31,058 nt of DNA from a virus. Both the position numbers and the translations under genes were made by a program. The stretch is taken from the IMG/VR virus record IMGVR_UViG_3300043570_002332, positions 1-31,058 of that record. One strand, written 5' to 3'. Of the stretch, positions 613 through 13,591 are shown one piece after another; position 1 is the first letter of the stretch, and each line of letters opens with the position of its first letter. The notes under the pieces were generated by a model. That model worked only from the letters and a program-made list of their open reading frames with translations. It searched no databases and was not told the origin of the DNA.

Positions 613-620
613 AAATAAAT

Positions 621-651
621 TTGTTTGTAAACTTTATTATACCGACCTTTG
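621..651 (+). promoter_or_regulatory. Module promoter copy 1
   Basis: TTGTAAACTTTATTAT, then -7 element GACCTTTG at 644-651. The ATG of the next gene follows after 23 bases. Confidence 0.85.
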
Positions 652-674
652 AAGTACATTAAACAAATAAGGAA

Positions 675-1052
675 ATGAAAGCGTACAAAATTAACGTAGC
701 CGACCGCAAGGTTGAAGCAATCGAAATCAACGATTGGAGAGACATCGCACCCTCAATTGGTGGAGAGTGTGAAAACTTTGAAGCACCAGTGACATTGGAG
801 AACGATGATACGTTCTACACCGATGAGGAAGGATTGTATCACACTTGTGAAGGTGGTTGGATGTTGGAGAACTTTGCACACCCAATCTTAGGGAACGCAC
901 TTGTGCAGGGAACAGATGATGAGGGTGGTAGCACCGAACCAAAATCTTCCATTGAGGAAATTGAGGCGATGATTACTTGGGTGAGCAAGGAAGATTGTGA
1001 GGCGTATCGCAGTTACGCCCTTAATACACCACCAAGAGTGTACGGATTCTAA
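675..1052 (+). CDS. DUF3846-like protein, 125 aa
   Basis: The N-terminal half (MKAYKINVADRKVEAIEIND, then IGGECENFEAP) and the later motif ILGNALVQGTDDEG resemble DUF3846-type phage and plasmid proteins, whose function is not known. The assignment rests on my recall of that pattern. The C-terminal third, ending PPRVYGF, is an acidic helix-rich stretch. It is a single gene between its own promoter and a hairpin terminator. The ATG follows ATAAGGAA, one of the few purine-rich leaders here. Confidence 0.6.
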   Translation: MKAYKINVADRKVEAIEINDWRDIAPSIGGECENFEAPVTLENDDTFYTDEEGLYHTCEGGWMLENFAHPILGNALVQGTDDEGGSTEPKSSIEEIEAMITWVSKEDCEAYRSYALNTPPRVYGF

Positions 1053-1061
1053 AAAGAGTAA

Positions 1062-1088
1062 GGGGGAGCAATCCCCCAAACTTTTTTA
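1062..1088 (+). terminator. Hairpin terminator
   Basis: GGGGGA (1062-1067) pairs with TCCCCC (1072-1077) around a GCAA loop. A T-run lies at 1082-1087. Confidence 0.75.
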
Positions 1089-1096
1089 TAAATAAA

Positions 1097-1128
1097 TTTG
1101 TTTGTAAACTTTTTTATACCGACCTTTG
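1097..1128 (+). promoter_or_regulatory. Module promoter copy 2, leaderless type
   Basis: TTGTAAACTTTTTTAT with -7 GACCTTTG at 1121-1128. Only AATT separates it from the ATG at 1133, so the transcript should start at or next to the start codon. Confidence 0.88.
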
Positions 1129-1132
1129 AATT

Positions 1133-1348
1133 ATGGAAATAACAAAATTAGAAATAACAAAAATAAAGTACGCAGAACAAATCAAAGATATTTTGGTTGA
1201 CCTTGCATTAGAAGATAAATTACCATTGGATATGACTACTTTGGATTCAAGTGTATTTGAAGAAGTTTTTTACCCATTGGTTAGAGCCTTATATGATGCA
1301 AAGGAAGATGCTACAATAATAAATAAATTAATTGAGAAAGTATTATGA
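1133..1348 (+). CDS. Hypothetical protein, 71 aa
   Basis: A predicted all-helical small protein, MEITKLEITKIKYAEQIKDIL..., with alternating acidic and basic residues. It is the first gene of a three-gene operon whose members overlap by ATGA: its TGA shares bases with the next ATG, which implies translational coupling. The predicted mRNA is leaderless. No family recognised. Confidence 0.85.
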   Translation: MEITKLEITKIKYAEQIKDILVDLALEDKLPLDMTTLDSSVFEEVFYPLVRALYDAKEDATIINKLIEKVL

Positions 1349-1596
1349 GCAAATTCTATCAAGCAGTTTTAGTTGAGGTTGAAGGCAATATCATTGACCA
1401 TGTGTATCCACACCTACACCATGCACCTAAACATGGTATGACTTTGGAAGAACGTATGCCAAATGATGCATTGTGTCCAGAGTGCGACCATGTAAAAAGA
1501 GAATGGTATCTTTACCCAAGAGAGAGTGTTATAGTTAAAGAGGGTGGTAAACCTTATGTTGAATGTTTAAATTGTGGTTATACTACACACCTATGA
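1345..1596 (+). CDS. Small zinc-ribbon protein, 83 aa
   Basis: Two CxxC knuckles, CPEC and CLNC, about 30 residues apart suggest a zinc ribbon. The N-terminal part holds a His cluster (HVYPHLHHAPKHG) that could add metal ligands. Its ATG overlaps the upstream stop and its TGA overlaps the downstream ATG. A nucleic-acid or protein-binding role is plausible from the fold alone. I cannot name a partner. Confidence 0.8.
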   Translation: MSKFYQAVLVEVEGNIIDHVYPHLHHAPKHGMTLEERMPNDALCPECDHVKREWYLYPRESVIVKEGGKPYVECLNCGYTTHL

Positions 1597-1760
1597 TAAA
1601 CATTTGGGTAGATAATAATACAGGGATCACTTACGAAGGTGATGAAGCAATGGTAAAGTTTTTGCGTTCCCAAGGTGATAAGACATACAATGATGCAAGT
1701 GATGAGTTTATTCTAAATGAAGCACACGCACAAAATTGGATAAAACTTTCTGAAAAATAA
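1593..1760 (+). CDS. Hypothetical protein, 55 aa
   Basis: I chose the start at 1593 because this ATG overlaps the preceding TGA, as at the previous junction. A longer in-frame start at 1563 would lie inside the upstream coding sequence. The product MINIWVDNNTGITYEGDEAMVKFL... is acidic, with a predicted strand pair and a C-terminal helix. It is the last gene of the three-gene operon. Function unknown. Confidence 0.75.
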   Translation: MINIWVDNNTGITYEGDEAMVKFLRSQGDKTYNDASDEFILNEAHAQNWIKLSEK

Positions 1761-1761
1761 A

Positions 1762-1793
1762 TTTGATTGTAAACTTTTTTATATTTATATTTG
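1762..1793 (+). promoter_or_regulatory. Module promoter copy 3
   Basis: TTGTAAACTTTTTTAT with -7 TATATTTG at 1786-1793, a full match to TAnnTTTG. The ATG follows after 19 bases. Confidence 0.85.
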
Positions 1794-1812
1794 TAACTTA
1801 ATAAATAAACAA

Positions 1813-2079
1813 ATGGGAAAATTCAAAAACAAAAAAACCTTATTGGTTGGTGAGGGTATCAATCAGCACACATTGTATGGCGACTTTATGGTTGCTGACA
1901 CAATCAATGACTTTGCCGATGTAAAGGTAAAGCAAACAAGTTTCTTAAAACACGAGCAACCGAATGGTGCTTGGAGTAACGAACACAAGACCTTGGAAAT
2001 TACCAAAGGTGATTGGAAAATGGGTAAGCAAGTTGAGTATAACCCATTCAGTCAGCAAGTATCAAGAGTTTGGGATTAA
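1813..2079 (+). CDS. Hypothetical protein, 88 aa
   Basis: A Lys-rich start (MGKFKNKKTLL) is followed by a predicted beta-rich body. It is a single-gene unit with its own promoter and a terminator 25 bases past the stop. No family recognised. Confidence 0.82.
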   Translation: MGKFKNKKTLLVGEGINQHTLYGDFMVADTINDFADVKVKQTSFLKHEQPNGAWSNEHKTLEITKGDWKMGKQVEYNPFSQQVSRVWD

Positions 2080-2104
2080 AAGTTTATTCTAATCTAAATG
2101 AAAG

Positions 2105-2133
2105 TGGGAAGCGAAAGTTTCCCATTTTTTTTT
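2105..2133 (+). terminator. Hairpin terminator
   Basis: TGGGAA (2105-2110) pairs with TTCCCA (2119-2124), followed by nine T. The next promoter begins about 10 bases later. Confidence 0.85.
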
Positions 2134-2142
2134 GTAAATAAA

Positions 2143-2174
2143 TTTGTTTGTAAACTTTTTTATATAGATATTTG
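2143..2174 (+). promoter_or_regulatory. Module promoter copy 4
   Basis: TTGTAAACTTTTTTAT with -7 GATATTTG at 2167-2174. The ATG follows after 25 bases. Confidence 0.85.
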
Positions 2175-2199
2175 CACCATACAATTAAACAAAACAAAA

Positions 2200-2595
2200 A
2201 TGGCAAATCCAGAAATTCATTCAAAAAGTTCAGTTAAGCGTTGGGGTGGTGTGATAGAAGATTACATCGCAATCCACGAACTGATTGATAGTCCAAAGGC
2301 GACTATGAATAACAATTCATCAAGAGCATTAACCCACAACACTTGGTTTGCTTATACAATCATTCCAAAGATATTTGGTTACAACATAACCAATTCAAGT
2401 GGTAAGAGTGTGGACACGATTGATATTGCTATGTTGCATATCGCAGAGGACTTTCGTATGAAGTTTGTGCCAACCCCACAAGATTATCTTAAACATATGC
2501 AAGTGCAACCTTGGTTTAATAATGGTGTTAAGGACATTGAAAATCCCGAAGCAACAAAGATAGCAGAAGAATTATTAGAAAGAATTAGAGAATAA
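2200..2595 (+). CDS. DUF6915-like protein, 131 aa
   Basis: The pattern H-x-K-S-S-V-K-R-W-G-G, E-D-Y-x-x-I-H-E, S-P-K-A, then I-F-G-x-x-I-T-N-S-S-G-K and H-I-A-E-D-F matches what I recall of DUF6915, a family of small phage and prophage proteins of unknown function. The family usually has RHRALRHH where this protein has SSRALTHN. I place the start at 2200, downstream of the promoter. The longer in-frame start at 2098 would translate through the terminator and promoter. The C terminus (EELLERIRE) is helical. Confidence 0.75.
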   Translation: MANPEIHSKSSVKRWGGVIEDYIAIHELIDSPKATMNNNSSRALTHNTWFAYTIIPKIFGYNITNSSGKSVDTIDIAMLHIAEDFRMKFVPTPQDYLKHMQVQPWFNNGVKDIENPEATKIAEELLERIRE

Positions 2596-2627
2596 TTTGG
2601 TTGTAAACTTTTTTACATATACATTTG
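2596..2627 (+). promoter_or_regulatory. Module promoter copy 5
   Basis: TTGTAAACTTTTTTAC with -7 TACATTTG at 2620-2627, starting at the preceding stop. The ATG follows after 18 bases. Confidence 0.85.
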
Positions 2628-2645
2628 CATTAAATAAATAGAGAA

Positions 2646-3299
2646 ATGAAAAACGAACAAGAAATTATCCAACTTTGGAAAGAACTACAAATCACCCACA
2701 TTAACTTTGAGTTTACTTGTGGTGGTGATAGTATGAATGACACAACCCTTAATATCCACAATGGCGAGGAAATTATTGAGAACGATGCGATTAGTACCTA
2801 CTTTGACCACGAGGTCTATAACGCAGTAGAGTTCTATGTAAATTCCGATGGACACTATCAAGGTGAGAGTGGGAATGTGCTGATTGAACTTGATGATAAT
2901 GAGGAAACCTTTAACTATATGAAGTCAGCACAAGCAGAGTATTGTGAGAGAATTACAAGCGAGGTTGAAGTGGAACTGACTGATGAGGAGATTGAGTTCG
3001 TTAAAGAGTTCGTTAGGGATATAAATGGTGGTGATAGTGAGGGTGCGAACCTTAACTACAAAAAGGACTTTATCATTAACCAAAAAAGGAAAGAACTGAT
3101 TGATAGTATTGGTGAAAAGGTTGCTGATATTTGTGGTGGTTTTGTACCCGAAATTGAGGGCAATGGTGAACTGAATGATTGGTATTCGTTTACCACAAAC
3201 GAAGATGATATTACCGATAGCGAGATTACTTTCAAAGGTAACAAACTTATCGTAATGGTATCAAATGAATACTACGATTATGTGGATAGCGAAATTTAA
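2646..3299 (+). CDS. DUF6878-like acidic protein, 217 aa
   Basis: A strongly acidic protein. An early segment, I-N-F-E-F-T-C-G-G-D-S, and a later V-N-S-D-G-H-Y-Q-G-E-S-G-N-V resemble the layout of DUF6878, which has a GDSG-like motif and then a strand with a conserved G. This is a weak, pattern-level match. The C-terminal ~100 residues are a separate predicted alpha/beta segment. No catalytic motif is visible. An acidic DNA-mimic or inhibitor role is possible, but nothing specific supports it. Confidence 0.55.
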   Translation: MKNEQEIIQLWKELQITHINFEFTCGGDSMNDTTLNIHNGEEIIENDAISTYFDHEVYNAVEFYVNSDGHYQGESGNVLIELDDNEETFNYMKSAQAEYCERITSEVEVELTDEEIEFVKEFVRDINGGDSEGANLNYKKDFIINQKRKELIDSIGEKVADICGGFVPEIEGNGELNDWYSFTTNEDDITDSEITFKGNKLIVMVSNEYYDYVDSEI

Positions 3300-3300
3300 T

Positions 3301-3332
3301 TTTGGTTGTAAACTTTTTTATACTTACCTTTG
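3301..3332 (+). promoter_or_regulatory. Module promoter copy 6
   Basis: TTGTAAACTTTTTTAT with -7 TACCTTTG at 3325-3332. The ATG follows after 19 bases. Confidence 0.87.
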
Positions 3333-3351
3333 AATTAAACAAATAGAAAAA

Positions 3352-4041
3352 ATGGAAATAGTAATTAACAATGTGCCAACTGAATATAACTTGGCTTGTC
3401 GTATGTTGAAAACCAAAGGTGGTGATTGCCCCTTTGATGAATTGCAGGATTTTTGGGAAGAGATTATCCCCTTAAAATTTAACGAGATAGCACAAATTCC
3501 TAACTTGGAACAAAGGCGAATTGCTTTATTGTTTCTTGGATTGGAGAGAATGATTGCTGATGTTAAACCGACATTGGTGAGCAGTAAAACAATTAGCAAA
3601 CAAACCACTTGGGTTATGGAGAGTGGTGAGTTAGTTGAACACAAGTTTGATGATACCTACGAACTTTACAAAGTGAATGGTGAGTATTTTAGCCAAGGGG
3701 TTGATTCTTGGAGAAAAATGAGTGATGCTTATTATGTGAAGTGCAAAGATACAAGCACCGATAGAGAGTATCTTATTTGGGTTGATATAAACAATGTATG
3801 GAATGTTGTAACTGAAAACAATAAGAACTTAAATCGTTGGGAGTTTAATATAAAAGATATTGATGCGATTGATTGTATTGCTTGGACTATTCAAACCGAC
3901 ATTCCAAAAGGTAGAATTGAAAAGATTGTAAGACAAGGTGATTGTATTATGATTAAACCGAAAGGTAAGTACGAAACACTTGGTAGAGAAAGACACCTAA
4001 CGAGTAAAGAGTATCTTGAATTGCTTGTAGCAGAAAGTTAA
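3352..4041 (+). CDS. Hypothetical protein, 229 aa
   Basis: The N-terminal ~75 residues are predicted helical (EQRRIALLFLGLERMI). They precede a beta-rich region with Y-Y-V-K-C-K-D-T-S-T-D-R-E-Y-L-I-W-V and a C-terminal I-V-R-Q-G-D-C-I-M-I-K-P-K-G strand pair. The look is of a conserved two-domain protein, but I cannot name the family. It stands as a single gene with its own promoter and no clear hairpin after it. Confidence 0.85.
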   Translation: MEIVINNVPTEYNLACRMLKTKGGDCPFDELQDFWEEIIPLKFNEIAQIPNLEQRRIALLFLGLERMIADVKPTLVSSKTISKQTTWVMESGELVEHKFDDTYELYKVNGEYFSQGVDSWRKMSDAYYVKCKDTSTDREYLIWVDINNVWNVVTENNKNLNRWEFNIKDIDAIDCIAWTIQTDIPKGRIEKIVRQGDCIMIKPKGKYETLGRERHLTSKEYLELLVAES

Positions 4042-4047
4042 AATAAA

Positions 4048-4079
4048 TTTGTTTGTAAACTTTTTTACCACGATATTTG
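4048..4079 (+). promoter_or_regulatory. Module promoter copy 7
   Basis: TTGTAAACTTTTTTAC with -7 GATATTTG at 4072-4079. The ATG follows after 22 bases. Confidence 0.86.
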
Positions 4080-4101
4080 CATTATCAAATAACAATTAGA
4101 T

Positions 4102-4395
4102 ATGAGTAATACTACAACACAAGCAAAGGAAGTGGTACAGAATGTAACCGACTACCTAAATTCATTCAGCAACAAGAACAAAGAGTTTATTACTGAAATG
4201 AATCGTGAACATCGCACCTTGCAACAAGGCTTTACCAAACTATGTATGGAATGGTTGGAGAATTGTGCAAGTGAGGAGTATCATTTTGACGGCAGAAACG
4301 AAGCAAGTCATAAGGTTGCCAGTGAAATGGTAGAAGGCTTTCGTGATGCCAAAGGTACAATGAGTAACCCGAGTGAGTGGTTGCCTTGCATATAA
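4102..4395 (+). CDS. Hypothetical helical protein, 97 aa
   Basis: Nearly all-helical by composition (TDYLNSFSNKNKEFITEMNREHRTLQQGFTK broken by few turns), ending in SEWLPCI. No signal peptide or membrane segment is visible. A hairpin terminator follows 28 bases after the stop. Function unknown. Confidence 0.83.
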   Translation: MSNTTTQAKEVVQNVTDYLNSFSNKNKEFITEMNREHRTLQQGFTKLCMEWLENCASEEYHFDGRNEASHKVASEMVEGFRDAKGTMSNPSEWLPCI

Positions 4396-4423
4396 GAGAT
4401 TGTTTTGTTCATGTATAGAGAAG

Positions 4424-4452
4424 GGATTGCAGAAATGCAGTCCTTTTTTTTT
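4424..4452 (+). terminator. Hairpin terminator
   Basis: GGATTGCA (4424-4431) pairs with TGCAGTCC (4436-4443) around a GAAA tetraloop, then nine T. Confidence 0.88.
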
Positions 4453-4476
4453 GTCTATGGATCAAAATAATTTAAA
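4451..4476 (+). repeat. Repeat upstream of promoter, copy A
   Basis: TTGTCTATGGATCAAAATAA followed by TTTAAA. A near-identical element lies at 5406-5432, in both cases between a terminator and a promoter. The core CTATGGATC reappears inverted near 13518-13526. Confidence 0.6.
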
Positions 4477-4491
4477 CATTTTAAAAATAAA

Positions 4492-4523
4492 TTTGGTTGT
4501 AAACTTTTTTATGCCGACCTTTG
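4492..4523 (+). promoter_or_regulatory. Module promoter copy 8
   Basis: TTGTAAACTTTTTTAT with -7 GACCTTTG at 4516-4523. The ATG follows after 25 bases. Confidence 0.87.
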
Positions 4524-4548
4524 AATTATCAAATAAACATAAATTATC

Positions 4549-5376
4549 ATGACAAAACAAAAAGAAAAAGTTATCAAAGGAACGGAGATTCCTTTCTTTA
4601 ACGTAATCGTACCTATGTCAAAAGACAATGGGCTTATTTATTGGGGTATCGGTGAGACAAGCGATATCAGTATCTTAAAACATCTTAATGAGGGTTGTAA
4701 CGGGGTTAATCGCAAAGTTACACAACCACATAAAGGTGAATTAGGTAGGGTAATCAAAGAGAACGGGTTTGCAGGTGGGATTGCAGTTTGTATTCTTGAC
4801 GGAGTTCTTTGGCGTGTTGACGGTAACCACAGAGCAGAGCAGTTAGCAGATAACAATTGCATTATCAGATTTTCATTCCGAACTGTTAGTAGTTTCAGTG
4901 AATTGATTAGAATTATGATTGGGTTTAATGATTCAGCAAAAAATTGGGGACTTAGCCAGTACATTAAAACCTACGAATCAACGGGTATTGAATCTTATGC
5001 TTTGCTAAGCCAACAAAAAACGGTTCATGGGCTTACAACCACAATCACCGCATCTCTAATCAGTAACACACCACTTAGCGAGGTTAAAAGACATCTTAGA
5101 TTAGGTACTTTTAAAATGGATAAAAAAGAAGCAGCGACTCAACGAGTATTATATGTGAGAAACTTTTTAGATAAGTTTGAGCAATCAGACCAAAGACCAG
5201 CGGAAGGGTTACTCTTACTATTAAGCACAATTGGTTTTAGTACTTTTAAAGCAGTCTATATTAAATTAGCGGAACGAGCTATTGTTTTAAGAAAAGAAGG
5301 GTTTATGCTTAGCCAAAAAACATCGGGTGCTAAAGAGTTTTATGAATTATTTAACGAGGCATATCAAACAATGTAA
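4549..5376 (+). CDS. ParB/Srx-fold-like protein, 275 aa
   Basis: Residues ~20-110 have the arrangement of the ParB/sulfiredoxin nuclease-like fold, with the signature W-R-V-D-G-N-H-R (88-95) matching the family's G-x-H-R box. The following I-G-F-N-D-S-A-K-N-W-G-L-S-Q-Y (124-138) resembles the N-x-x-x-K-x-W segment of ParB-like proteins in Bacteroidota phages and mobile elements. The C-terminal half is helical and may hold a DNA-binding domain. Likely activities are DNA binding, NTP-dependent clamp behaviour or nuclease activity; I cannot choose between them. It is a single gene with a strong terminator. Confidence 0.72.
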   Translation: MTKQKEKVIKGTEIPFFNVIVPMSKDNGLIYWGIGETSDISILKHLNEGCNGVNRKVTQPHKGELGRVIKENGFAGGIAVCILDGVLWRVDGNHRAEQLADNNCIIRFSFRTVSSFSELIRIMIGFNDSAKNWGLSQYIKTYESTGIESYALLSQQKTVHGLTTTITASLISNTPLSEVKRHLRLGTFKMDKKEAATQRVLYVRNFLDKFEQSDQRPAEGLLLLLSTIGFSTFKAVYIKLAERAIVLRKEGFMLSQKTSGAKEFYELFNEAYQTM

Positions 5377-5382
5377 AAGATA

Positions 5383-5407
5383 GGGAACGAAAGTTCCCTT
5401 TTTTTTT
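5383..5407 (+). terminator. Hairpin terminator
   Basis: GGGAAC (5383-5388) pairs with GTTCCC (5393-5398) around GAAA, then nine T. Confidence 0.9.
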
Positions 5408-5432
5408 GTCCATGGATCAAAAATAGTTTAAA
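5406..5432 (+). repeat. Repeat upstream of promoter, copy B
   Basis: TTGTCCATGGATCAAAAATA followed by GTTTAAA, nearly identical to 4451-4476 and in the same position between terminator and promoter. Confidence 0.6.
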
Positions 5433-5437
5433 ATAGA

Positions 5438-5469
5438 TTTGTTTGTAAACTTTTTTATGGCGAACTTTG
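5438..5469 (+). promoter_or_regulatory. Module promoter copy 9
   Basis: TTGTAAACTTTTTTAT with -7 GAACTTTG at 5462-5469. The ATG follows after 19 bases. Confidence 0.85.
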
Positions 5470-5488
5470 AAGTGTTAAATTAATCAAT

Positions 5489-5752
5489 ATGAAAGTATTA
5501 AGCAGAGACGAAATGATGACATGGCTCAAAGATAAAGGAGTTAAAGTTGTCGGCACCACCGAACAATTCTACAATGAGAGTGAAGGTAGAGGTATTTGGG
5601 TTAGTGGTGAGGATTCAGACCTATTCGATTACTATCGTGAAAGCTGGTACAATAGTCATGGTGTTAGTCCTAAACTGAATGAGCAGACCGAAAAACGCGG
5701 TTGGTACTATGAATGGTACGATACGGGAACGATGATGCTTTGGCCAAATTAA
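5489..5752 (+). CDS. Hypothetical protein, 87 aa
   Basis: Aromatic- and acid-rich (SDLFDYYRESWYNSHG, then GWYYEWYDTGTMMLWPN). The ending resembles a small Bacteroidota family with a ...Y-Y-x-x-x...W-x-D-x-G-T pattern whose function I do not know. It is a single gene with its own promoter. Confidence 0.82.
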   Translation: MKVLSRDEMMTWLKDKGVKVVGTTEQFYNESEGRGIWVSGEDSDLFDYYRESWYNSHGVSPKLNEQTEKRGWYYEWYDTGTMMLWPN

Positions 5753-5758
5753 AATAAA

Positions 5759-5790
5759 TTTGGTTGTAAACTTTATTATACCGACCTTTG
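5759..5790 (+). promoter_or_regulatory. Module promoter copy 10
   Basis: TTGTAAACTTTATTAT with -7 GACCTTTG at 5783-5790. The ATG follows after 20 bases. Confidence 0.86.
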
Positions 5791-5810
5791 AATTAACAAA
5801 ACAATCAGAC

Positions 5811-6050
5811 ATGAATATTGTAGATTTTTTACACGCAAAGCCAAAGGTAGCATACCTTTATGCTGACAACACCACGAAGACATGGGAGTTTCGTTGGACG
5901 GGAATTTTTGGGCAAGGTTACTATCAGTTGACTAAGAATGGTCGCAGACATCCTATGAGCAAATTTAAAGTTGCTAAGCAAATTTATTATGAGTACATGG
6001 ACGGACAATGTATATTAGTTCCAACTGAAAATAAAAATCTTGTAATTTAA
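5811..6050 (+). CDS. Hypothetical protein, 79 aa
   Basis: The ATG at 5811 sits 20 bases after the promoter, whereas the longer in-frame start at 5760 lies inside the promoter itself. The product is basic and beta-rich (KVAYLYADNTTKTWEFRWTG..., GYYQLTKNGRRHPMSKFKVAKQ), a size and composition compatible with a small nucleic-acid-binding protein. No family recognised. Confidence 0.8.
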   Translation: MNIVDFLHAKPKVAYLYADNTTKTWEFRWTGIFGQGYYQLTKNGRRHPMSKFKVAKQIYYEYMDGQCILVPTENKNLVI

Positions 6051-6082
6051 TTAGGTTGTAAACTTTTTTATAACGATATTTG
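6051..6082 (+). promoter_or_regulatory. Module promoter copy 11
   Basis: TTGTAAACTTTTTTAT with -7 GATATTTG at 6075-6082. The ATG follows after 26 bases. Confidence 0.86.
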
Positions 6083-6108
6083 TGCCATAATCAATTAAAC
6101 AAAATAAA

Positions 6109-7900: not shown

Positions 7901-7919
7901 AATCATCAAAATAAATAAG

Positions 7920-8222
7920 ATGACAGCAATTAAAGACATTAAAACAAGTATAGGTTTAACAATCTATAAAGGTGACTACGAAGGAGCACAATGGTCAATC
8001 ACTGGGTTCCCGAAGTCTGAGGTAATCGGACACCAATTTGAATCAGCATATGATTTTCAAGATTGTATTAAACGCAATGTAAATTGTAGTGGTATTGACT
8101 TTGATAGCGAGTATTGTCAGTTCTTTGCATACGCCAAGACAAAGGCAAGGTTGGTTAGTTTTGGGAAGCAGATTGATAAGCACTTTGCGAAGGCGAAAGA
8201 ATTAAAAGAAAAGATGTATTAA
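7920..8222 (+). CDS. Hypothetical protein, 100 aa
   Basis: A beta-rich N terminus (SIGLTIYKGDYEGAQWSITGF) is followed by a Cys-containing middle (CIKRNVNCSGIDFDSEYC) and a Lys-rich C-terminal helix. It is the first gene of a two-gene unit; the next ATG lies two bases after its stop. No family recognised. Confidence 0.83.
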   Translation: MTAIKDIKTSIGLTIYKGDYEGAQWSITGFPKSEVIGHQFESAYDFQDCIKRNVNCSGIDFDSEYCQFFAYAKTKARLVSFGKQIDKHFAKAKELKEKMY

Positions 8223-8224
8223 AA

Positions 8225-8545
8225 ATGGAAAATTTTAGTCAGTTATGCGTTTGGGAAGGCACAGTTGTCGGAGCAGACCAAGTGGAAAACTTTGAAGGCT
8301 GGTTACAGTTAGAGTTCGGAGTACGAGGAAAATATATTGAAGAGGTATTGACCTTGCCAACGGAAGGTGAAGAAGGTACAGGTGGAAGGAACGATGTATT
8401 CTTTCGTGTACACGATGAAGACGTAATGAAGTTCGCAGTACCACGTTTGTTGGTTGGTATTAAATGGTGGGAAGATGTGTTGGGGAATGGCAATGGAGTA
8501 TTGTACCCCGAAAATATTTTAGAAAAATATGAAAAAACTTGGTAA
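8225..8545 (+). CDS. Hypothetical protein, 106 aa
   Basis: An acidic alpha/beta protein, MENFSQLCVWEGTVVGADQVENF..., with a Gly/Glu-rich loop (PTEGEEGTGGRNDV) and several Trp residues (LQLEFG, IKWWEDV). It is the second gene of the unit, with only two bases between stop and ATG. Function unknown. Confidence 0.83.
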   Translation: MENFSQLCVWEGTVVGADQVENFEGWLQLEFGVRGKYIEEVLTLPTEGEEGTGGRNDVFFRVHDEDVMKFAVPRLLVGIKWWEDVLGNGNGVLYPENILEKYEKTW

Positions 8546-8549
8546 TAAA

Positions 8550-8581
8550 TTTGTTTGTAAACTTTTTTATACCGATATTCG
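8550..8581 (+). promoter_or_regulatory. Module promoter copy 16, variant -7
   Basis: TTGTAAACTTTTTTAT with -7 GATATTCG at 8574-8581, the only copy with C inside the TTTG. It has the longest leader, 41 bases, which contains repeats of ATTAAACA. Confidence 0.8.
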
Positions 8582-8622
8582 CATTAACATTAAACAATTA
8601 AACAATTAAACAACAAATAACA

Positions 8623-8940
8623 ATGGCAAGCATCTTACAACGATTGACGGGTATTCCCGACCAAGAACAAGTAGAAGAAGAAAAAATTAAAACGCAGTTG
8701 GAAAGTATGAAAGACTTTGAACGAGTAATACATATCCTTTCATCTTGCGTTCACGAGGCACACATTGAAGTAGCAGATAATTGCTTTCAAGTGTTTAAGA
8801 ATAAGTGGAAAAACCTTTCCAATGAGGTTATGGATTACAATTACTTAATCTATCGTAAAGAAAGAGAGAGGTTGTATAACCACCTTGCAAGACTTGATAG
8901 TCTTATGGAAGAACGAAGTGGCGAGTTGTTGTTGACTTGA
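8623..8940 (+). CDS. Hypothetical helical protein, 105 aa
   Basis: Almost entirely alpha-helical by composition, with charged N- and C-terminal heptad-like segments (DQEQVEEEKIKTQLESM; RKERERLYNHLARLDSLMEE). A terminator follows. No family recognised; a coiled-coil oligomer is likely. Confidence 0.83.
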   Translation: MASILQRLTGIPDQEQVEEEKIKTQLESMKDFERVIHILSSCVHEAHIEVADNCFQVFKNKWKNLSNEVMDYNYLIYRKERERLYNHLARLDSLMEERSGELLLT

Positions 8941-8963
8941 CACTTGTTTAATTGTGAAGGAAA

Positions 8964-8988
8964 GGGTGGCAGAGATGTCGCCCTTTTT
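8964..8988 (+). terminator. Hairpin terminator
   Basis: GGGTGGCA (8964-8971) pairs with TGTCGCCC (8976-8983), with two G-U pairs, around a GAGA tetraloop. Five T follow. Confidence 0.82.
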
Positions 8989-9013
8989 GATTAACAAAGT
9001 TATTCACAATAAA

Positions 9014-9045
9014 TTTGGTTGTAAACTATTAAAGACATACCTTTG
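9014..9045 (+). promoter_or_regulatory. Module promoter copy 17, divergent spacer, leaderless type
   Basis: TTGTAAAC is kept but the usual T-run is replaced by TATTAAAGACA. The -7 TACCTTTG at 9038-9045 is a full consensus match with the same 16-base spacing. CACT and then the ATG at 9050 follow. Confidence 0.8.
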
Positions 9046-9049
9046 CACT

Positions 9050-9310
9050 ATGGAAAAGACGGAGAAAAATATGGAAAAACTTACGAAACAATTAGTAATG
9101 ATTGATAGTCGTGTTGGCGATATTAAAGGGGAGATTGCAACACTTGATTTCCAAATGGAGATAAGCAAGATTGATGCGAGGTTGTATCGTATGAAACGAA
9201 AGACCTTAATGTATGAATTATCATTGATTGATAAAAAGGTTGGGGATATTAATACTGACTATCAATTAAACGAAATGTTCAGAGAATTAGGAGTTACATT
9301 ATCAAAATAA
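9050..9310 (+). CDS. Hypothetical coiled-coil protein, 86 aa
   Basis: The start at 9050 lies four bases after the -7 element; the longer in-frame start at 8954 lies upstream of the promoter, overlapping the terminator. The protein is helical with an internal repeat (I-D-S-R-V-G-D-I-K and I-D-K-K-V-G-D-I-N), suggesting two similar helices in a hairpin or dimer. It is followed six bases later by a secreted-type gene. Function unknown. Confidence 0.78.
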   Translation: MEKTEKNMEKLTKQLVMIDSRVGDIKGEIATLDFQMEISKIDARLYRMKRKTLMYELSLIDKKVGDINTDYQLNEMFRELGVTLSK

Positions 9311-9316
9311 TAACAT

Positions 9317-9688
9317 ATGAAAAAGTTTATTTTAATTAGTTTGTTTTTAATTGAAGGGTTGAATGCTTTTAGCCAAATACCAAAACTAAAAATAATATTG
9401 TATCCAAACACCGATTTTGAATACGAACAAGCGGTAAAGTTAATGTCTGATACTACATTCAGCAACGACTTTTGTTTTGATATTATTCGCAAACATAAGG
9501 ATTCAGGATTTCCCGAACAATACGGAATAGTTAAAGTTGATTTCGTTTATTGTGAAAATGATGTTAGGGTTGCCAGTTGTCAAGGGAATACAATTCCTAA
9601 CAAGAAAGATTTAACTTTCTATGCGAATATGTCTTTGAACATTACCAACGATCCAAAATTATTAAAAACCACAAAAGTTTTATATTAA
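9317..9688 (+). CDS. Putative exported protein, 123 aa
   Basis: It begins with a Sec-type signal peptide, MKKFILISLFLIEGLNAFSQ, with probable cleavage after AFS. The mature ~104 residues are mixed alpha/beta with three Cys (DFCFD, VYCEN, ASCQG), which could form disulfides in the periplasm. It shares a unit with the coiled-coil gene upstream. An envelope-directed role is inferred only from the signal peptide. Confidence 0.78.
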   Translation: MKKFILISLFLIEGLNAFSQIPKLKIILYPNTDFEYEQAVKLMSDTTFSNDFCFDIIRKHKDSGFPEQYGIVKVDFVYCENDVRVASCQGNTIPNKKDLTFYANMSLNITNDPKLLKTTKVLY

Positions 9689-9691
9689 AAG

Positions 9692-9723
9692 TTTGTTTGT
9701 AAACTTTTTTATATGGATATTTG
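9692..9723 (+). promoter_or_regulatory. Module promoter copy 18
   Basis: TTGTAAACTTTTTTAT with -7 GATATTTG at 9716-9723. The ATG follows after 25 bases. Confidence 0.86.
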
Positions 9724-9748
9724 TACCATACAATTAGATAAAAACAAA

Positions 9749-10192
9749 ATGAAAAAATTAATCGCTATTGCCGTTATCGGCTTAATTTCAGCAAGTGTAT
9801 TCGGACAAGATGCACAAAATTGCGAGGTTGCTCGTCAAAAGTACCTTGAAGCCAATCCCGATGTTAAGAGGGATGGAAAAGACGCTTGGAAGCACTACAA
9901 CGAAAGTGGAAAGAATGAGGGGAGAAAGTGGTATCCTTGCACCGAAGAAGTAAAGGTTGTGGAAGCACCTAAACTACCCGAAAGTGTATTCCAAACGGAT
10001 ATGACCATTGTTAAAAACAAGAAAACGAATACATTGGTTATTACCTTTAAGGTATCAAGTGCGTTCAACAACGCTGATGTGGAATCAGTAAAGCAGTATG
10101 TTCAGTTCTTTTATTCTCGTGAAGGCTATATTGGTTGGACACCACAAGTTTCACACAATGGAGATATTTGGACATTCGTATTCAATAAGTAA
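9749..10192 (+). CDS. Exported protein with NPDV...HY...G..EGR motif, 147 aa
   Basis: The start at 9749 gives a clean Sec signal peptide (MKKLIAIAVIGLISASVFGQ, cleavage near VFG); the longer in-frame start at 9713 lies inside the promoter. Next comes Y-L-E-A-N-P-D-V, W-K-H-Y-N-E-S-G-K-N-E-G-R-K-W. That motif is known as a short module beside surface and polysaccharide-related proteins in many bacteria. The C-terminal ~80 residues are beta-rich. Likely periplasmic or surface-located. It is a single gene with a strong terminator. Confidence 0.78.
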   Translation: MKKLIAIAVIGLISASVFGQDAQNCEVARQKYLEANPDVKRDGKDAWKHYNESGKNEGRKWYPCTEEVKVVEAPKLPESVFQTDMTIVKNKKTNTLVITFKVSSAFNNADVESVKQYVQFFYSREGYIGWTPQVSHNGDIWTFVFNK

Positions 10193-10215
10193 TTTCATTC
10201 TAATCAATTTGAAAG

Positions 10216-10242
10216 TGGGGACAATAGTCCCCATTTTTTTTT
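10216..10242 (+). terminator. Hairpin terminator
   Basis: TGGGGAC (10216-10222) pairs perfectly with GTCCCCA (10227-10233) around AATA, then nine T. The sequence before it (ATTCTAATC...TGAAAGTGGG) is nearly the same as before the 2105 terminator. Confidence 0.9.
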
Positions 10243-10251
10243 GCAGATAAA

Positions 10252-10283
10252 TTTGTTTGTAAACTTTTTTATATAGATATTTG
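10252..10283 (+). promoter_or_regulatory. Module promoter copy 19
   Basis: TTGTAAACTTTTTTAT with -7 GATATTTG at 10276-10283. The ATG follows after 29 bases. Confidence 0.86.
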
Positions 10284-10289
10284 CATAGA

Positions 10290-10313
10290 TAAAAATAAAA
10301 ATAAAAATAAAAA
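10290..10313 (+). repeat. Hexanucleotide tandem repeat (TAAAAA)x4 in a leader
   Basis: Four perfect copies of TAAAAA run from the end of the promoter into the A of the ATG at 10313. The tract fills the whole leader, so changes in copy number would move the start codon relative to the transcription start. Confidence 0.75.
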
Positions 10314-10594
10314 TGAAAAACGTAGAAGGGGTAAAATTAAGAGCCGAATTCGTGAACGAATATGGCGAGCGTATGACAATGATTGTTGACGCAGACAATA
10401 AGACTTGGGTTCACCACACTGATTGTAACAAAGATTTTGAATTGTTGGAAACATTTGGACACACCTACATTTTAAATCATTCAGAAATTAGAATACTTAA
10501 TTCTTTTCTTGGAATGAAGGGTGCTTTAAAAGAACAAACTATCGAGGAACTTTTGAATCCGAGTTTAGAAGAACTTTTAACACCAAAGATTTAA
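10313..10594 (+). CDS. Hypothetical protein, 93 aa
   Basis: A beta-rich N-terminal half (GVKLRAEFVNEYGERMTMIVD) is followed by an Asp/His/Cys segment (WVHHTDCNKDFELL) and a C-terminal tail with a short repeat (EELLNPSLEELLTPKI). It sits alone behind an A-rich repeat leader. No family recognised. Confidence 0.82.
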   Translation: MKNVEGVKLRAEFVNEYGERMTMIVDADNKTWVHHTDCNKDFELLETFGHTYILNHSEIRILNSFLGMKGALKEQTIEELLNPSLEELLTPKI

Positions 10595-10613
10595 TTATCT
10601 AAAAAAATTATAA

Positions 10614-10641
10614 AAGGGGAAAATTAATTCCCCTTTTTTTT
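10614..10641 (+). terminator. Hairpin terminator
   Basis: AAGGGGAA (10614-10621) pairs with TTCCCCTT (10628-10635), followed by a T-run. Confidence 0.82.
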
Positions 10642-10651
10642 ATTAAATTAA

Positions 10652-10683
10652 TTTGTTTGTAAACTTTTTTATGCCGACCTTTG
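10652..10683 (+). promoter_or_regulatory. Module promoter copy 20, leaderless type
   Basis: TTGTAAACTTTTTTAT with -7 GACCTTTG at 10676-10683, then AATT and the ATG at 10688. Confidence 0.88.
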
Positions 10684-10687
10684 AATT

Positions 10688-10855
10688 ATGTTAAAGATAA
10701 TCATAGCACAATTTCCAAGCAAATGCCATTCAAGTAAGAAGCGTTTGAATAAAGGTGATACAATCATATATGATGTTGTAAGGAAGGTTGCATACCACCC
10801 AAGCCACGCACCGAAACAAAGTTATGCTGACGATGGCAGAGTTATTTCAAATTAA
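10688..10855 (+). CDS. Small basic protein, 55 aa
   Basis: A short open frame exactly behind a leaderless-type promoter: MLKIIIAQFPSKCHSSKKRL, then NKGDTIIYDVVRKVAYHPSHAPKQSY, ending at TAA 10853-10855. It is basic, with a His cluster and one Cys. Promoter placement and the 11-base gap to the DUF4314 gene argue that it is real. Function unknown. Confidence 0.7.
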   Translation: MLKIIIAQFPSKCHSSKKRLNKGDTIIYDVVRKVAYHPSHAPKQSYADDGRVISN

Positions 10856-10866
10856 TTAAAAAGTAT

Positions 10867-11055
10867 ATGGACAATAGACACTTAATCGGTAAAAGAATTA
10901 AATTAATCTCAATGGTTAATGAACAACACCCAGTGGAGAGTGGAACGGAAGGTATAATCACAAATGTTGGGTTTGATGTTATCAGCGTTCTATGGGACAA
11001 TGGTAGAAGGTTGGGGGTGATCATTGGTGAAGACAATTATCAAATTTTAGAATAA
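10867..11055 (+). CDS. DUF4314 family protein, 62 aa
   Basis: The pattern G-K-R-I-K-L-I-S-M, H-P-V-E-S-G-T-E-G-I-I, V-L-W-D-N-G-R-R-L-G-V-I, then D-N-Y-Q-I-L-E fits DUF4314 along almost its whole length. This is a small SH3-like beta-barrel family common in phages and mobile elements, with no assigned function. It is the second gene of a unit with the 55-aa basic protein. Confidence 0.85.
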   Translation: MDNRHLIGKRIKLISMVNEQHPVESGTEGIITNVGFDVISVLWDNGRRLGVIIGEDNYQILE

Positions 11056-11056
11056 A

Positions 11057-11088
11057 TTTGTTTGTAAACTTTTTTATAACGATATTTG
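11057..11088 (+). promoter_or_regulatory. Module promoter copy 21
   Basis: TTGTAAACTTTTTTAT with -7 GATATTTG at 11081-11088. The ATG follows after 23 bases. Confidence 0.86.
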
Positions 11089-11111
11089 AATTATAATTAA
11101 ACAAAATAGAA

Positions 11112-11327
11112 ATGAAAAGAGAAATTAAAATCGTTCCGTTAGTCCTATCAGTATTAGGATTCATTGCAGTAGGTTTATGTTGGGGTTCATTGAATGAACT
11201 TGCCAACACCACCGAATTGGTTATTGGCATCGTGTTGGGGTTTGTTGCGTTCAGTTTTATTCTTTTATTGTCAATCGGTTTTCCATTGACAAAGGAAGAT
11301 AGAGAACATACTGAAATCAGATTGTAA
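11112..11327 (+). CDS. Two-span membrane protein, 71 aa
   Basis: Two hydrophobic helices at about residues 7-26 and 35-57 (LVLSVLGFIAVGLCWG; LVIGIVLGFVAFSFILLLSI) are joined by a short polar loop. A basic N terminus (MKREIK) and a charged C tail (KEDREHTEIRL) predict both ends in the cytoplasm. The topology would suit an inner-membrane protein such as a holin-like or exclusion factor, but there is no family signature. A terminator follows. Confidence 0.8.
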   Translation: MKREIKIVPLVLSVLGFIAVGLCWGSLNELANTTELVIGIVLGFVAFSFILLLSIGFPLTKEDREHTEIRL

Positions 11328-11332
11328 AAGAA

Positions 11333-11366
11333 TGGGGAATGAAAGTTCCCCAAACTTTTTTTTGTT
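11333..11366 (+). terminator. Hairpin terminator fused to next promoter
   Basis: TGGGGAA (11333-11339) pairs with TTCCCCA (11346-11352). The T-run that follows runs directly into the next TTGTAAAC element. Confidence 0.8.
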
Positions 11367-11391
11367 GTAAACTTTTTTATTTGTATCTTTG
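11361..11391 (+). promoter_or_regulatory. Module promoter copy 22
   Basis: TTGTAAACTTTTTTAT with -7 TATCTTTG at 11384-11391, a full TAnnTTTG match. The ATG follows after 22 bases. Confidence 0.85.
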
Positions 11392-11413
11392 AATTAACAA
11401 AATAAATAAGAAT

Positions 11414-11704
11414 ATGGCAACAAAACAATTCAAAATCGGTGAGTACGCAGTTGGTGGAATTATCAAGGTAACCACAAACGGAAATTGCATCTCAATTCAA
11501 AGTGTTGATTATTACAGTAAAAAAGTAATCGGTAACTACGAATTTGATAGTGCATCCAACAATGCAGAGAGAGAGGTTGATAATCTATTAAATGAATTAA
11601 CAAGCAGTTACTATTCAGACCTGGTAATGAAGTGGATTAAAGAACACGCTAGGTTTAATGAAAAGGGTTGGAAGTTGTGGGATAATGTGAGGAAAATGGG
11701 TTAA
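11414..11704 (+). CDS. Hypothetical protein, 96 aa
   Basis: The N-terminal half is a beta sheet (FKIGEYAVGGIIKVTTNGNCISIQ...) and the C-terminal half is helical with Trp residues (VMKWIKEHARF, GWKLWDNV). It is a single gene between promoter and terminator. No family recognised. Confidence 0.83.
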   Translation: MATKQFKIGEYAVGGIIKVTTNGNCISIQSVDYYSKKVIGNYEFDSASNNAEREVDNLLNELTSSYYSDLVMKWIKEHARFNEKGWKLWDNVRKMG

Positions 11705-11714
11705 GGAATAAAGG

Positions 11715-11739
11715 GGGTTGCAGAAATGTAACCCTTTTT
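11715..11739 (+). terminator. Hairpin terminator
   Basis: GGGTTGCA (11715-11722) pairs with TGTAACCC (11727-11734) around GAAA, then five T. Confidence 0.85.
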
Positions 11740-11757
11740 CATTTTAATCAAAATAGA

Positions 11758-11789
11758 TTTGTTTGTAAACTTTTTTATATGTTAATTTG
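11758..11789 (+). promoter_or_regulatory. Module promoter copy 23, weak -7, near-leaderless
   Basis: TTGTAAACTTTTTTAT with a poor -7, TTAATTTG, at 11782-11789. The ATG at 11795 follows after 5 bases. The weaker -7 could mean lower expression of the membrane-directed product. Confidence 0.75.
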
Positions 11790-11794
11790 AATCA

Positions 11795-12346
11795 ATGAAA
11801 AAGATAATATTATTAATCGGGTTCGCGGTTGGCACATTGGTTGCAAACGCACAAATTTTGGTTGGGGTTAATACTAAATTAAATAACTATACTTTTGGGG
11901 TTGATGCAAATAATATTGGTTACTATGGTTCATTATCTTATAGTAAGATTGAACAGGGTAAGTTAGCACCTTTATTTAGATATGATATTGTTGATGCTGA
12001 TTTGCACCCAAACGCAAAGCATTATGATGCGGTAAGTTCATATAGTAATGAAGTTAATACCACAATAGCAATCGGCAAGGTATTAAACAATAATAATGAT
12101 TTTAGGGTTGGGGTTCACATTGGTATTAATTACAATCAAAAAGAATCTTACAATAACTATAATGATAAAGATTTGGGTTCATTCAGTATCTTATCTAATA
12201 GAGTTAATGATAATAGTTTGGTTGGTGGGGTTTATCTTAATTACCACATTGGTTGGGTTAAAATTGATGTTAGCACCAATAAACAAATTACCACAAGTTT
12301 AGGTTTGTTTATACCTTTGAAATACGAAAGAAATTGTTTAAGATAA
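11795..12346 (+). CDS. Putative outer-membrane beta-barrel protein, 183 aa
   Basis: A Sec signal peptide (MKKIILLIGFAVGTLVANAQ, cleavage after NAQ or ANA) precedes a mature domain of alternating polar and hydrophobic strands rich in Asn, Tyr and Gly. Examples are YGSLSYSKI, FRVGVHIGINYN, LVGGVYLNYHIGWVKIDV and ITTSLGLFIPL. That pattern fits a small (about 8-stranded) outer-membrane barrel. The last residues (YERNCLR) lack the usual terminal aromatic. A phage-made surface barrel could block adsorption by other phages; this is inference. No hairpin terminator is seen downstream. Confidence 0.72.
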   Translation: MKKIILLIGFAVGTLVANAQILVGVNTKLNNYTFGVDANNIGYYGSLSYSKIEQGKLAPLFRYDIVDADLHPNAKHYDAVSSYSNEVNTTIAIGKVLNNNNDFRVGVHIGINYNQKESYNNYNDKDLGSFSILSNRVNDNSLVGGVYLNYHIGWVKIDVSTNKQITTSLGLFIPLKYERNCLR

Positions 12347-12376
12347 AAAAAATATTTTCATATTAATTAAAATAAA

Positions 12377-12408
12377 TTTGGTTGTAAACTTTTTTATGTC
12401 GTACTTTG
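12377..12408 (+). promoter_or_regulatory. Module promoter copy 24
   Basis: TTGTAAACTTTTTTAT with -7 GTACTTTG at 12401-12408. The ATG follows after 30 bases. The 20 bases before it (TTAATTAAAATAAATTTG) recur before the 13560 promoter. Confidence 0.84.
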
Positions 12409-12438
12409 CATCAAGTTAAACAACTAAAAAATAAATAT

Positions 12439-13308
12439 ATGTTTTACATTAACAACAACGACAGCGTTAACGCTTTTATGCTTTTAGAAAAAGCAGGTTT
12501 AAATTGGTCAGCAAACAAAGAAGTATTGCAGACTGCAAGTGGTATCATTACAGATAGCGTTGCTATCGTTCGTGAGGATAACCAAAAAATCTTGGGGGTG
12601 CATAAAGCATCTTACGAAGTTTTCCAAAATCAGCAAATGGCTGAATTGTTATTTCAATTATCGCAGTCAGCAGATTTGCCAATTCACAATGCGGGTTTAT
12701 TGGGTGGTGGTTCAAAAGTATTCATTCAGTTAAAAACTGATGATTTGAATTTAGCCTATGGCGATATGGTAAAAGGATACCTTACCGCAGTTAATTCATT
12801 TGACGGTTCTACAAGCCTTGCATTCGGTCATTCAACCACTACAATCAGTTGCCAAAACACTTTCTTTGGTGCTTATCGTGGTTTGAGTTCAAAGATTAAA
12901 CATACTAAATCTATGGTAATCAAAATTGATGATTTGTTAAAGTCAGCAGAGCAAGTGAGAGCAGAGGAAAAGGCAAACTTTGAAACTATCAAAAAATTGT
13001 CAGAAGTGCCAATGTCAGACAAGTGGGTTGATGAAGTTTTAAAGGGGTTATTCGCAGTATCTTTGGCAGATGTTAAAGCAGATGCAGATACAATCAGCAC
13101 ACGAAACAAAAATAACATTATGCGTTTTCGTGATGCCTTGGCTCAAGAAACTACTTACAAAGGTAAAACAATGTGGGGTTTATTCAGTGGTGTAACGAAG
13201 TACACAACACATATGTTGGGTTCTGATAAAGATGATACCAAAATGTTTGGTTCAGTGGCTCAAAAGGAACGCAGATTGTTTGAGCAGTTTGCAGAGGTGG
13301 TTAAGTAA
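12439..13308 (+). CDS. DUF932 phage/plasmid-like protein, 289 aa
   Basis: The ordered motifs R-E-D-N-Q-K-I-L-G-V-H (45-55), E-V-F-Q-N-Q (60-65), H-N-A-G-L-L-G-G-G-S-K-V-F (83-95), N-S-F-D-G-S-T-S-L (119-127) and C-Q-N-T-F (138-142) define the DUF932 family. It is widespread in phages and plasmids and has no established activity. Length is typical for the family. The start at 12439 lies 30 bases past the promoter; the longer in-frame start at 12406 would begin inside the -7 element. The C-terminal third is helical. A strong terminator follows. Confidence 0.88.
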   Translation: MFYINNNDSVNAFMLLEKAGLNWSANKEVLQTASGIITDSVAIVREDNQKILGVHKASYEVFQNQQMAELLFQLSQSADLPIHNAGLLGGGSKVFIQLKTDDLNLAYGDMVKGYLTAVNSFDGSTSLAFGHSTTTISCQNTFFGAYRGLSSKIKHTKSMVIKIDDLLKSAEQVRAEEKANFETIKKLSEVPMSDKWVDEVLKGLFAVSLADVKADADTISTRNKNNIMRFRDALAQETTYKGKTMWGLFSGVTKYTTHMLGSDKDDTKMFGSVAQKERRLFEQFAEVVK

Positions 13309-13329
13309 TCGCCACAAACGAACGGAAAG

Positions 13330-13352
13330 GGGTGCTAAATGCACCCTTTTTT
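13330..13352 (+). terminator. Hairpin terminator
   Basis: GGGTGC (13330-13335) pairs with GCACCC (13341-13346), loop TAAAT, then six T. Confidence 0.87.
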
Positions 13353-13445
13353 GTTTTATAGGTATTTTATCAGTTAAACTATTAAAGTGGCTTAAAACGG
13401 CTTAAAATCAGTTTTGATTAATATAAAAAAATAATTGCAAATAAA

Positions 13446-13462
13446 TTTGTTTGTAAACTTTT
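13446..13462 (+). promoter_or_regulatory. Decayed copy of the module promoter
   Basis: TTTGTTTGTAAACTTTT is intact, but the expected -7 position carries no TTTG and no gene follows for 155 bases. It is probably a remnant of a lost gene unit, or a binding site without promoter function. Confidence 0.6.
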
Positions 13463-13559
13463 AATAACATATTTTATCAAATATAAGATAGGGGAATTTT
13501 TTTTTGGGGTGCTTTATAGATCCATAGAAAAAAAATATTTTGATATTAATTAAAATAAA

Positions 13560-13591
13560 TTTGTTTGTAAAGTTTTTTATGCCGTTCTTTG
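13560..13591 (+). promoter_or_regulatory. Module promoter copy 25, C-to-G variant
   Basis: TTGTAAAGTTTTTTAT with -7 GTTCTTTG at 13584-13591. This is the only copy with G in place of C after TAAA. The ATG follows after 26 bases. Confidence 0.8.

Follow-up and report, generated by a model that had tools for sequence, protein, structure and literature searches.

Near-identical promoters with a lineage-private element head the small genes of a probable large-phage fragment

The left module of IMG/VR virus record IMGVR_UViG_3300043570_002332 carries 25 closely similar promoters in front of small genes, which raises the question of what reads so many promoters and what keeps them alike. The window analyzed here is the complete record, 31,058 bases long, and the phage it represents is called G000. 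Judging from the sequence, we hold with roughly even confidence that the module is an early-gene array written in a phage-private promoter dialect and that a specificity factor for RNA polymerase, carried by the phage, maintains this dialect. The array itself and the type of its promoters are near-certain.

The 25 promoters lie on the plus strand within positions 620-13596, together with one further element that has no -7. The 16-mer TTGTAAACTTTTTTAT, searched with up to three mismatches, gave 24 plus-strand matches at 625-13580 against an expectation of 3.6 ± 2.0 on both strands, and the 25th promoter, at 9019, carries TTGTAAACTATTAAAG; a preliminary description of this DNA was right to call about 25 promoters near-identical. 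Exact copies of the 16-mer number 17, with none in 300 dinucleotide shuffles of the region. The looser pattern TTNG-N20-NWNNTTTG occurs 24 times on the plus strand and once on the minus strand of positions 1-14300 (shuffles: mean 1.5, maximum 7). A motif search over the whole window restricts the promoters to the left module, with no copy in the remaining 13.6-31 kb. Beneath the 25 promoters stand 33 small genes, the layout of a T4-like early array in which many near-consensus promoters precede short early units. The units had been described as single-gene, which fits the 20 monocistronic ones but not the five that head two or three genes. No paralogy was found among the promoter-led genes compared.

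The left module is also carried by three relatives, G002 (67.7 kb), G003 (69.7 kb) and G004 (36.6 kb). The first two are 98.7% identical to each other and about 85% identical to the window, and G004 reaches 19 kb to the left of it. Another record, G001, overlaps window positions 10182-31057 at 99.995% and continues to the right for about another 9 kb. A class II aminoacyl-tRNA-synthetase-like protein (23050-23931; PF00152; a PHROG of unknown function) has at least 595 IMG/VR relatives and joins most of these records to several hundred viral contigs; it is a marker of a large phage family. Some of these contigs measure 240-465 kb, so that in all likelihood the window covers only part of a large phage genome. 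Among 50,697 annotated phages, a near-identity search with window positions 1-16000 returned no match, and a promoter-length query returned only weak, low-complexity-like matches.

The promoter type was assigned from the position of its elements. In Flavobacterium johnsoniae, the -7 element spans T-12 to G-5 and transcription starts 4-5 nt after the TTTG (PMC6847099); applied to the array, this rule places the predicted +1 on an A in 22 of 25 promoters. The element at -36 to -33 is then the TTTG within AATAAATTTG; it precedes by one repeat the TTG that the preliminary description had taken for the -33, and it stands 20 nt before the -7, as the roughly 20-nt spacing of sigma-ABfr promoters would have it. 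It reads TTTG in 21 promoters, TTAG in three and TTTT in one. The TTG noted earlier lies at -31 to -29, at a constant 16 bases from the -7 octamer in 25 of 25 promoters, as had been stated. Its role as the -33 must be given up: the TTTG belongs to an upstream AATTTG, and in relatives such as G004 the noted TTG is replaced and the upstream TTTG stays. Ahead of open reading frames in 108 family loci, a set that includes overlapping loci and close relatives, TTTG-Nk-TANNTTTG was found at 142 distinct sites for k = 20, at 39 for k = 19 and at 3-13 for other spacings, and TTTG-N20-TANNTTTG had 110 sites against 3 in the control in one Bacteroidaceae genome. The upstream TTTG is taken as the -33 because the +1 falls on A, the N20 spacing dominates and the TTTG is kept in relatives.

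The array promoters are shown by this alignment of elements to match the sigma-ABfr type, with a -33 TTTG, a 20-nt spacer, a -7 NAnnTTTG and a predicted +1 A. Within the -7, the ending is TTTG in 24 of 25 promoters (the exception, at 8555, ends in TTCG), -11 is A in 22, and -12 is G in 19 and T in only six; the claim of Bacteroidota primary-sigma-type promoters holds for the type, whereas the -7 TAnnTTTG given with it is missing from most sites. The promoter type points to Bacteroidota as the hosts. The array shares with Bacteroidota sigma-ABfr/RpoD promoters both elements, the AT-rich spacer of about 20 nt and a predicted transcription start about 5 nt past the TTTG, but it differs from them in a private 9-nt box at -32 to -24, in the frequent G-12 and in its leaders. 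An ATG falls exactly on the predicted +1 in five genes and at +2 in one, so that 24% of the 25 units are predicted to be leaderless or nearly so. By comparison, about 3.7% of 5' untranslated regions are under 10 nt in Bacteroides thetaiotaomicron (PMC7366714), and 13% of leaders measure 10 nt or less in F. johnsoniae (PMC6847099). The zero leader is kept for the gene at 9050 in G002 and G004 and for the gene at 1133 in G004.

The box, KTTGTAAAC, has a sequence private to the phage lineage. Orthologous promoters were matched through the genes behind them, which had to be reciprocal best hits. Between unrelated promoters within G000 the box is 0.93 identical. In contrast, the 10 pairs of orthologous promoters from G000 and G004, whose proteins average 82% identity, reach only 0.39 in the box, against 0.38 for non-orthologous pairs, whereas the -33 is 0.97, the T-tract 0.85 and the -7 0.76 identical. 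Since 4-fold degenerate sites in the same genes are 0.72 identical, the box has changed faster than near-neutral sites, yet within each lineage it stays uniform. At a like synonymous distance (0.73), G002 has the same box as G000 (0.92). Boxes of G004 and its sister L114 are of the GTCAGTAAM and CACAAGAAC types, and that of L117 is mainly CACACTAAM. The box promoter was found in this clade only among 2.9 million viral contigs (IMG/VR), and a search of 84,980 bacterial and archaeal genomes returned two stray single matches. Conservation of the spacer does exceed the sigma consensus, as the preliminary description had it. Its suggestion that a phage factor reads the spacer gains from the concerted, faster-than-synonymous change of the box, but not from the T-tract, which needs no such factor because it is kept in all close relatives and F. 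johnsoniae ordinarily has AT-rich motifs with centres at -18 and -28 (PMC6847099).

Private letters are also present in the -7. In 13 of 16 orthologue pairs G000 has G-12 where G002 has T, and G000 alone among the relatives has it, most close relatives being TAnnTTTG. Strictly defined, GANNTTTG occurs 13 times in G000 and not once in G002, G004, G135, L117 or G138, which hold TANNTTTG at 21, 29, 31, 12 and 42 sites, respectively. In G136, of which 156 kb were read, TTTA replaces TTTG, with 31 TANNTTTA against 17 TANNTTTG sites. At the level of sequence comparison, and over few lineages, box and -7 are thus shown to form a lineage-private dialect that changes in concert.

Could the host supply this dialect? 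One possibility is that the strong early promoters need no reader other than the host sigma, as in T4, with the box, the T-tract and -12 tuning strength and the uniformity reflecting selection for the best host fit. The array has the geometry of a host promoter, AT-rich motifs around -18 and -28 are a normal feature of F. johnsoniae (PMC6847099), and T4 early promoters also carry consensus beyond the sigma elements (PMC2988021). This account is nevertheless rather unlikely, given that the box promoter is essentially missing from the 84,980 genomes, that the box is wholly different between phages with genes about 82% identical, and that G-12 departs from the host consensus. As a general host preference G-12 is unsupported, with GANNTTTG at 1785 sites against 1678 in the control in 118 genomes from the phylum of a Bacteroidaceae genome. 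Among 31 genomes, TANNTTTA showed no enrichment (765 against 1096) and TANNTTTG was enriched (924 against 658). A host switch, in which the promoters of each phage simply follow what the sigma of another Bacteroidota host prefers, could draw on a modest GANNTTTG excess in some host genomes (27 against 6 in both G040 and G103). Neither GANNTTTG nor TANNTTTA is enriched overall, however, and the genome collection holds only two single box-promoter matches, although the true host may be unsampled; we regard a host switch as very improbable. Separately, locus L362 of bacterial genome G040 has a dispersed repeat with TTTGGATGGATAAGCAAAGTTTTGTAGTTTTG ahead of unrelated genes, which may be a bacterial counterpart of a spread promoter.

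Uniformity could also be a by-product of promoter-gene cassettes that are copied and shuffled by recombination at repeats, with no dedicated reader of the box. Relatives differ by single promoter-gene units that were inserted, lost or relocated, and eight of nine broken gene junctions are promoter junctions. L117 has one promoter, at 8129, with the GTTGTAAAC box of the window among promoters that are mostly CACACTAAM, and it looks like an imported cassette that retained its donor's promoter. The junction bias is not significant, however (8 of 23 promoter junctions against 1 of 7 others, p = 0.39), so module shuffling at promoters has the right direction only. Positions -15 to -13, just 10 nt away from the box, are 0.40 identical within G000 against 0.93 for the box, which argues against simple copying: homogenization is limited to the box and the functional elements and did not spread a copied tract. 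The box and -12 also changed in concert on different branches, with their neighbours unchanged. Taken together, we consider cassette copying an unlikely source of the uniformity.

Under the reading we prefer, the one-directional array would give almost every small accessory gene its own start of transcription. Box and -7 would be kept uniform because one phage-borne specificity factor reads all promoters; working with the host core RNA polymerase, it would most likely be either an RpoD-like sigma of the phage's own or an activator that associates with sigma. Changes in its specificity would lead to rewriting of the whole array. Early in infection the array would be switched as a single regulon, and the single-gene units would allow genes to enter and leave individually. 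As the putative reader, a sigma or sigma partner encoded by the phage is the best-supported mechanism, and we place it midway between doubtful and probable.

Candidate readers exist in the family. Sigma70_r4 matches were found in 8 of 15 family records searched, seven of them over the cut-off, and the same 15 records gave no match to a phage RNA polymerase beta' (RNA_pol_Rpb1_2). Aligned with a host RpoD over regions 1.2-4, the phage sigmas compared show 30-52% identity. Several have WIRK or WIRS in place of WWIRQ in region 2.4 and an altered recognition helix in region 4.2. The sigma gene of G136 (783-1664) comes second after a canonical TACATTTG promoter (286) and heads an array that is mostly TTTA; of the 52 promoters listed, 47 fall within the first 43.5 kb of the 156 kb. 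This layout would suit an early sigma that precedes a regulon of its own specificity. Jumbo phages that encode an RpoD-like sigma but lack a polymerase have been described, Bacteroidetes phages among them (PMC7824862). The larger relatives resemble these Group 2 jumbo phages in encoding RpoD-like sigmas without a beta' match in the families searched; in the window fragment no sigma was found and no capsid or polymerase gene was recognized.

Several observations weigh against a phage-borne reader. No sigma gene was found in the window fragment, the overlapping record, G002-G004 or G135, all of them fragments (30-73 kb). G138 and G005 encode sigmas and have spacers without a uniform box, so that having a sigma need not go with having a box; moreover, a sigma reading the box would be unusual, as the box falls between the positions that sigma normally contacts. 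With so few independent lineages, the box may have switched only once or twice. Longer haplotypes (CCGACCTTTGAATTA) recur in groups of promoters, which means that some copying does occur. Finally, because of the minor GANNTTTG excess in a few host genomes such as G040 and G103, the host polymerase may tolerate G-12.

A ParB-like gene at 4549-5376 was considered as the reader of the box and rejected, as it does not co-vary with it: G000 and G002 share the box and have different genes at this locus. The locus (G004 24114-24926; G002 3159-3797) is hypervariable between neighbours that are 80-98% identical, with 24% identity or replacement by another gene.

The array also contains an element with the -33 and the box and without the -7, which the preliminary description had called a single decayed copy. 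The element exists, but it need not be a decayed copy, since G002 has three such elements (numbered in array orientation, 12887 and 13491 on the plus strand, 14731 on the minus strand) that share with it a TTTTTTATAAAATAAAAGGG-like continuation; they may be a second class of element. Such box-only elements would suit a box that serves as operator or stoperator for one phage repressor, acting in immunity or early shut-off on all early promoters and diverging in specificity. So would the resemblance to the stoperators of Cluster A mycobacteriophages, some 25-30 short asymmetric sites in one orientation that are uniform within and divergent between phages (PMC6550527). In contrast to stoperators, which are not tied to promoters and spread outside them, nearly every box here is fixed at -32 to -24 in phase with the -7: 24 of 25 strict box sites lie in promoters, joined by a looser site at 11365, and one lies outside. 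No integrase, repressor or lysogeny gene was seen among the genes and families scanned in this incomplete genome, and the ParB-like candidate does not track the box. We therefore judge a repressor to be distinctly unlikely.

Comparison with other known systems places the array between several of them. Many near-identical strong promoters with consensus beyond the sigma elements are a trait it has in common with T4 early promoters, and terminator-promoter cassettes between small early genes recall the PeSL cassettes of T4-type phages, which combine a stem-loop with an early promoter at gene junctions that act as shuffling points and were reportedly described by Arbiol et al. in 2010. Unlike either, the array involves another host sigma and has its extra element rewritten in concert between relatives, and the stem-loop is absent from some of its units. 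T4 middle promoters likewise have a phage-specific element, the MotA box, whose centre falls at about -28 to -30, ahead of a -10/-7 of host type (PMC2988021), but the array retains its -33 TTTG rather than having it replaced, and no homologue of MotA or AsiA was noticed, though no search was aimed at one. The closest analogues would be T4 early promoters and PeSLs for the layout, and T7/T3 divergence, MotA boxes and stoperators for the lineage-private sites.

Many units had been credited with their own terminators. About 8-9 of 25 have a recognizable terminator just upstream, and the rest do not; separate regulation by terminators is therefore plausible for only about a third of the units. Terminator-like sites number 33 on both strands against 6.7 ± 2.7 in shuffles. 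Coordinates of the promoters and related features are collected in Table 1.

Table 1. Promoters and associated elements of the left module (leader lengths in nt are predicted).
Feature	Position	Strand	Sequence	Leader	Remarks
Promoter array module	617..14166	+			25 units, 33 small genes, all genes on + strand
Promoter 1 (-36..+1)	620..656	+	GACCTTTG	19	
Promoter 2	1097..1133	+	GACCTTTG	leaderless	3 genes
Promoter 3	1762..1798	+	TATATTTG	15	
Promoter 4	2143..2179	+	GATATTTG	21	DUF6915 gene at 2200
Promoter 5	2596..2632	+	TACATTTG	14	
Promoter 6	3301..3337	+	TACCTTTG	15	
Promoter 7	4048..4084	+	GATATTTG	18	
Promoter 8	4492..4528	+	GACCTTTG	21	ParB-like gene
Promoter 9	5438..5474	+	GAACTTTG	15	
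Promoter 10	5759..5795	+	GACCTTTG	16	
Promoter 11	6051..6087	+	GATATTTG	22	
Promoter 12	6565..6601	+	GACCTTTG	leaderless	2 genes
Promoter 13	7038..7074	+	GACCTTTG	leaderless	
Promoter 14	7291..7327	+	GATATTTG	18	
Promoter 15	7869..7905	+	GATATTTG	15	2 genes
Promoter 16	8550..8586	+	GATATTCG	37	
Promoter 17	9014..9050	+	TACCTTTG	leaderless	2 genes; leaderless also in G002, G004
Promoter 18	9692..9728	+	GATATTTG	21	
Promoter 19	10252..10288	+	GATATTTG	25	
Promoter 20	10652..10688	+	GACCTTTG	leaderless	2 genes
Promoter 21	11057..11093	+	GATATTTG	19	
Promoter 22	11360..11396	+	TATCTTTG	18	no exact TTTG at -36..-33
Promoter 23	11758..11794	+	TTAATTTG	1	
Promoter 24	12377..12413	+	GTACTTTG	26	DUF932 gene
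Promoter 25	13560..13596	+	GTTCTTTG	22	
Element with -33 and box, without -7	13446-13500	+			
Intrinsic terminator directly upstream of a promoter (example)	1062..1088	+			others at 2100, 4417, 5382, 10612, 11333, 11710

Further observations concern spacers and neighbouring regions. In distant relatives, some spacers are perfect inverted repeats with differing arms (L123 14863, L124 14174 and 16135, G005, G138 152821; for example GTGGAATgaaaATTCCAC and GGGGTATAG...TATACCCC), at times with a T-rich -7 following. A spacer hairpin acting as a terminator that overlaps the promoter was rejected as a general feature: it applies to a few promoters of G005, L123 and G138, and the 142 sites score 4.1 on average against 3.7 when shuffled. 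TTTA-type promoters of G136 (L226 2591-12743) carry the repeated inverted-repeat spacer GATAATTAAAATATTATC, and a second promoter class in the same genome (GAAAAGTAAATATAATATTG, TTTG) fills 33-43 kb. Intergenic regions of the array contain a recurring ATCCATRGA / YATGGATC motif (window 4456, 5409, 13515), also present in G002 and G004. Directly after the array module follows a C-rich intergenic stretch (CCCCCCCC...CCCCCCC; 14380-14430), and positions 24024-26086 encode a tandem pair of lectin-domain (Laminin_G_3) proteins with about 80% DNA identity over 460 bp, partly similar to virion structural protein profiles.

In T7 and T3 phages, the specificity of polymerase and promoter has diverged. 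We propose a sigma-based counterpart of this split for the whole family only tentatively: its 25-50 early promoters, in a private dialect made up of the box and an altered -12 or -5, may be read by a phage RpoD-like sigma or partner and rewritten in concert with that reader. Even on a plain reading, the assignment of the -33 is corrected and a high share of predicted leaderless genes is documented. If the proposal is true, the array would be a natural record of how a regulon exchanges its entire cis code in one step, outpacing synonymous change, and the phage RpoD homologues would already be at hand as candidate readers. Bacteroidota, for which orthogonal promoter-sigma pairs are scarce, would gain new ones, and large phages would be seen to keep single-gene early units under one switch.

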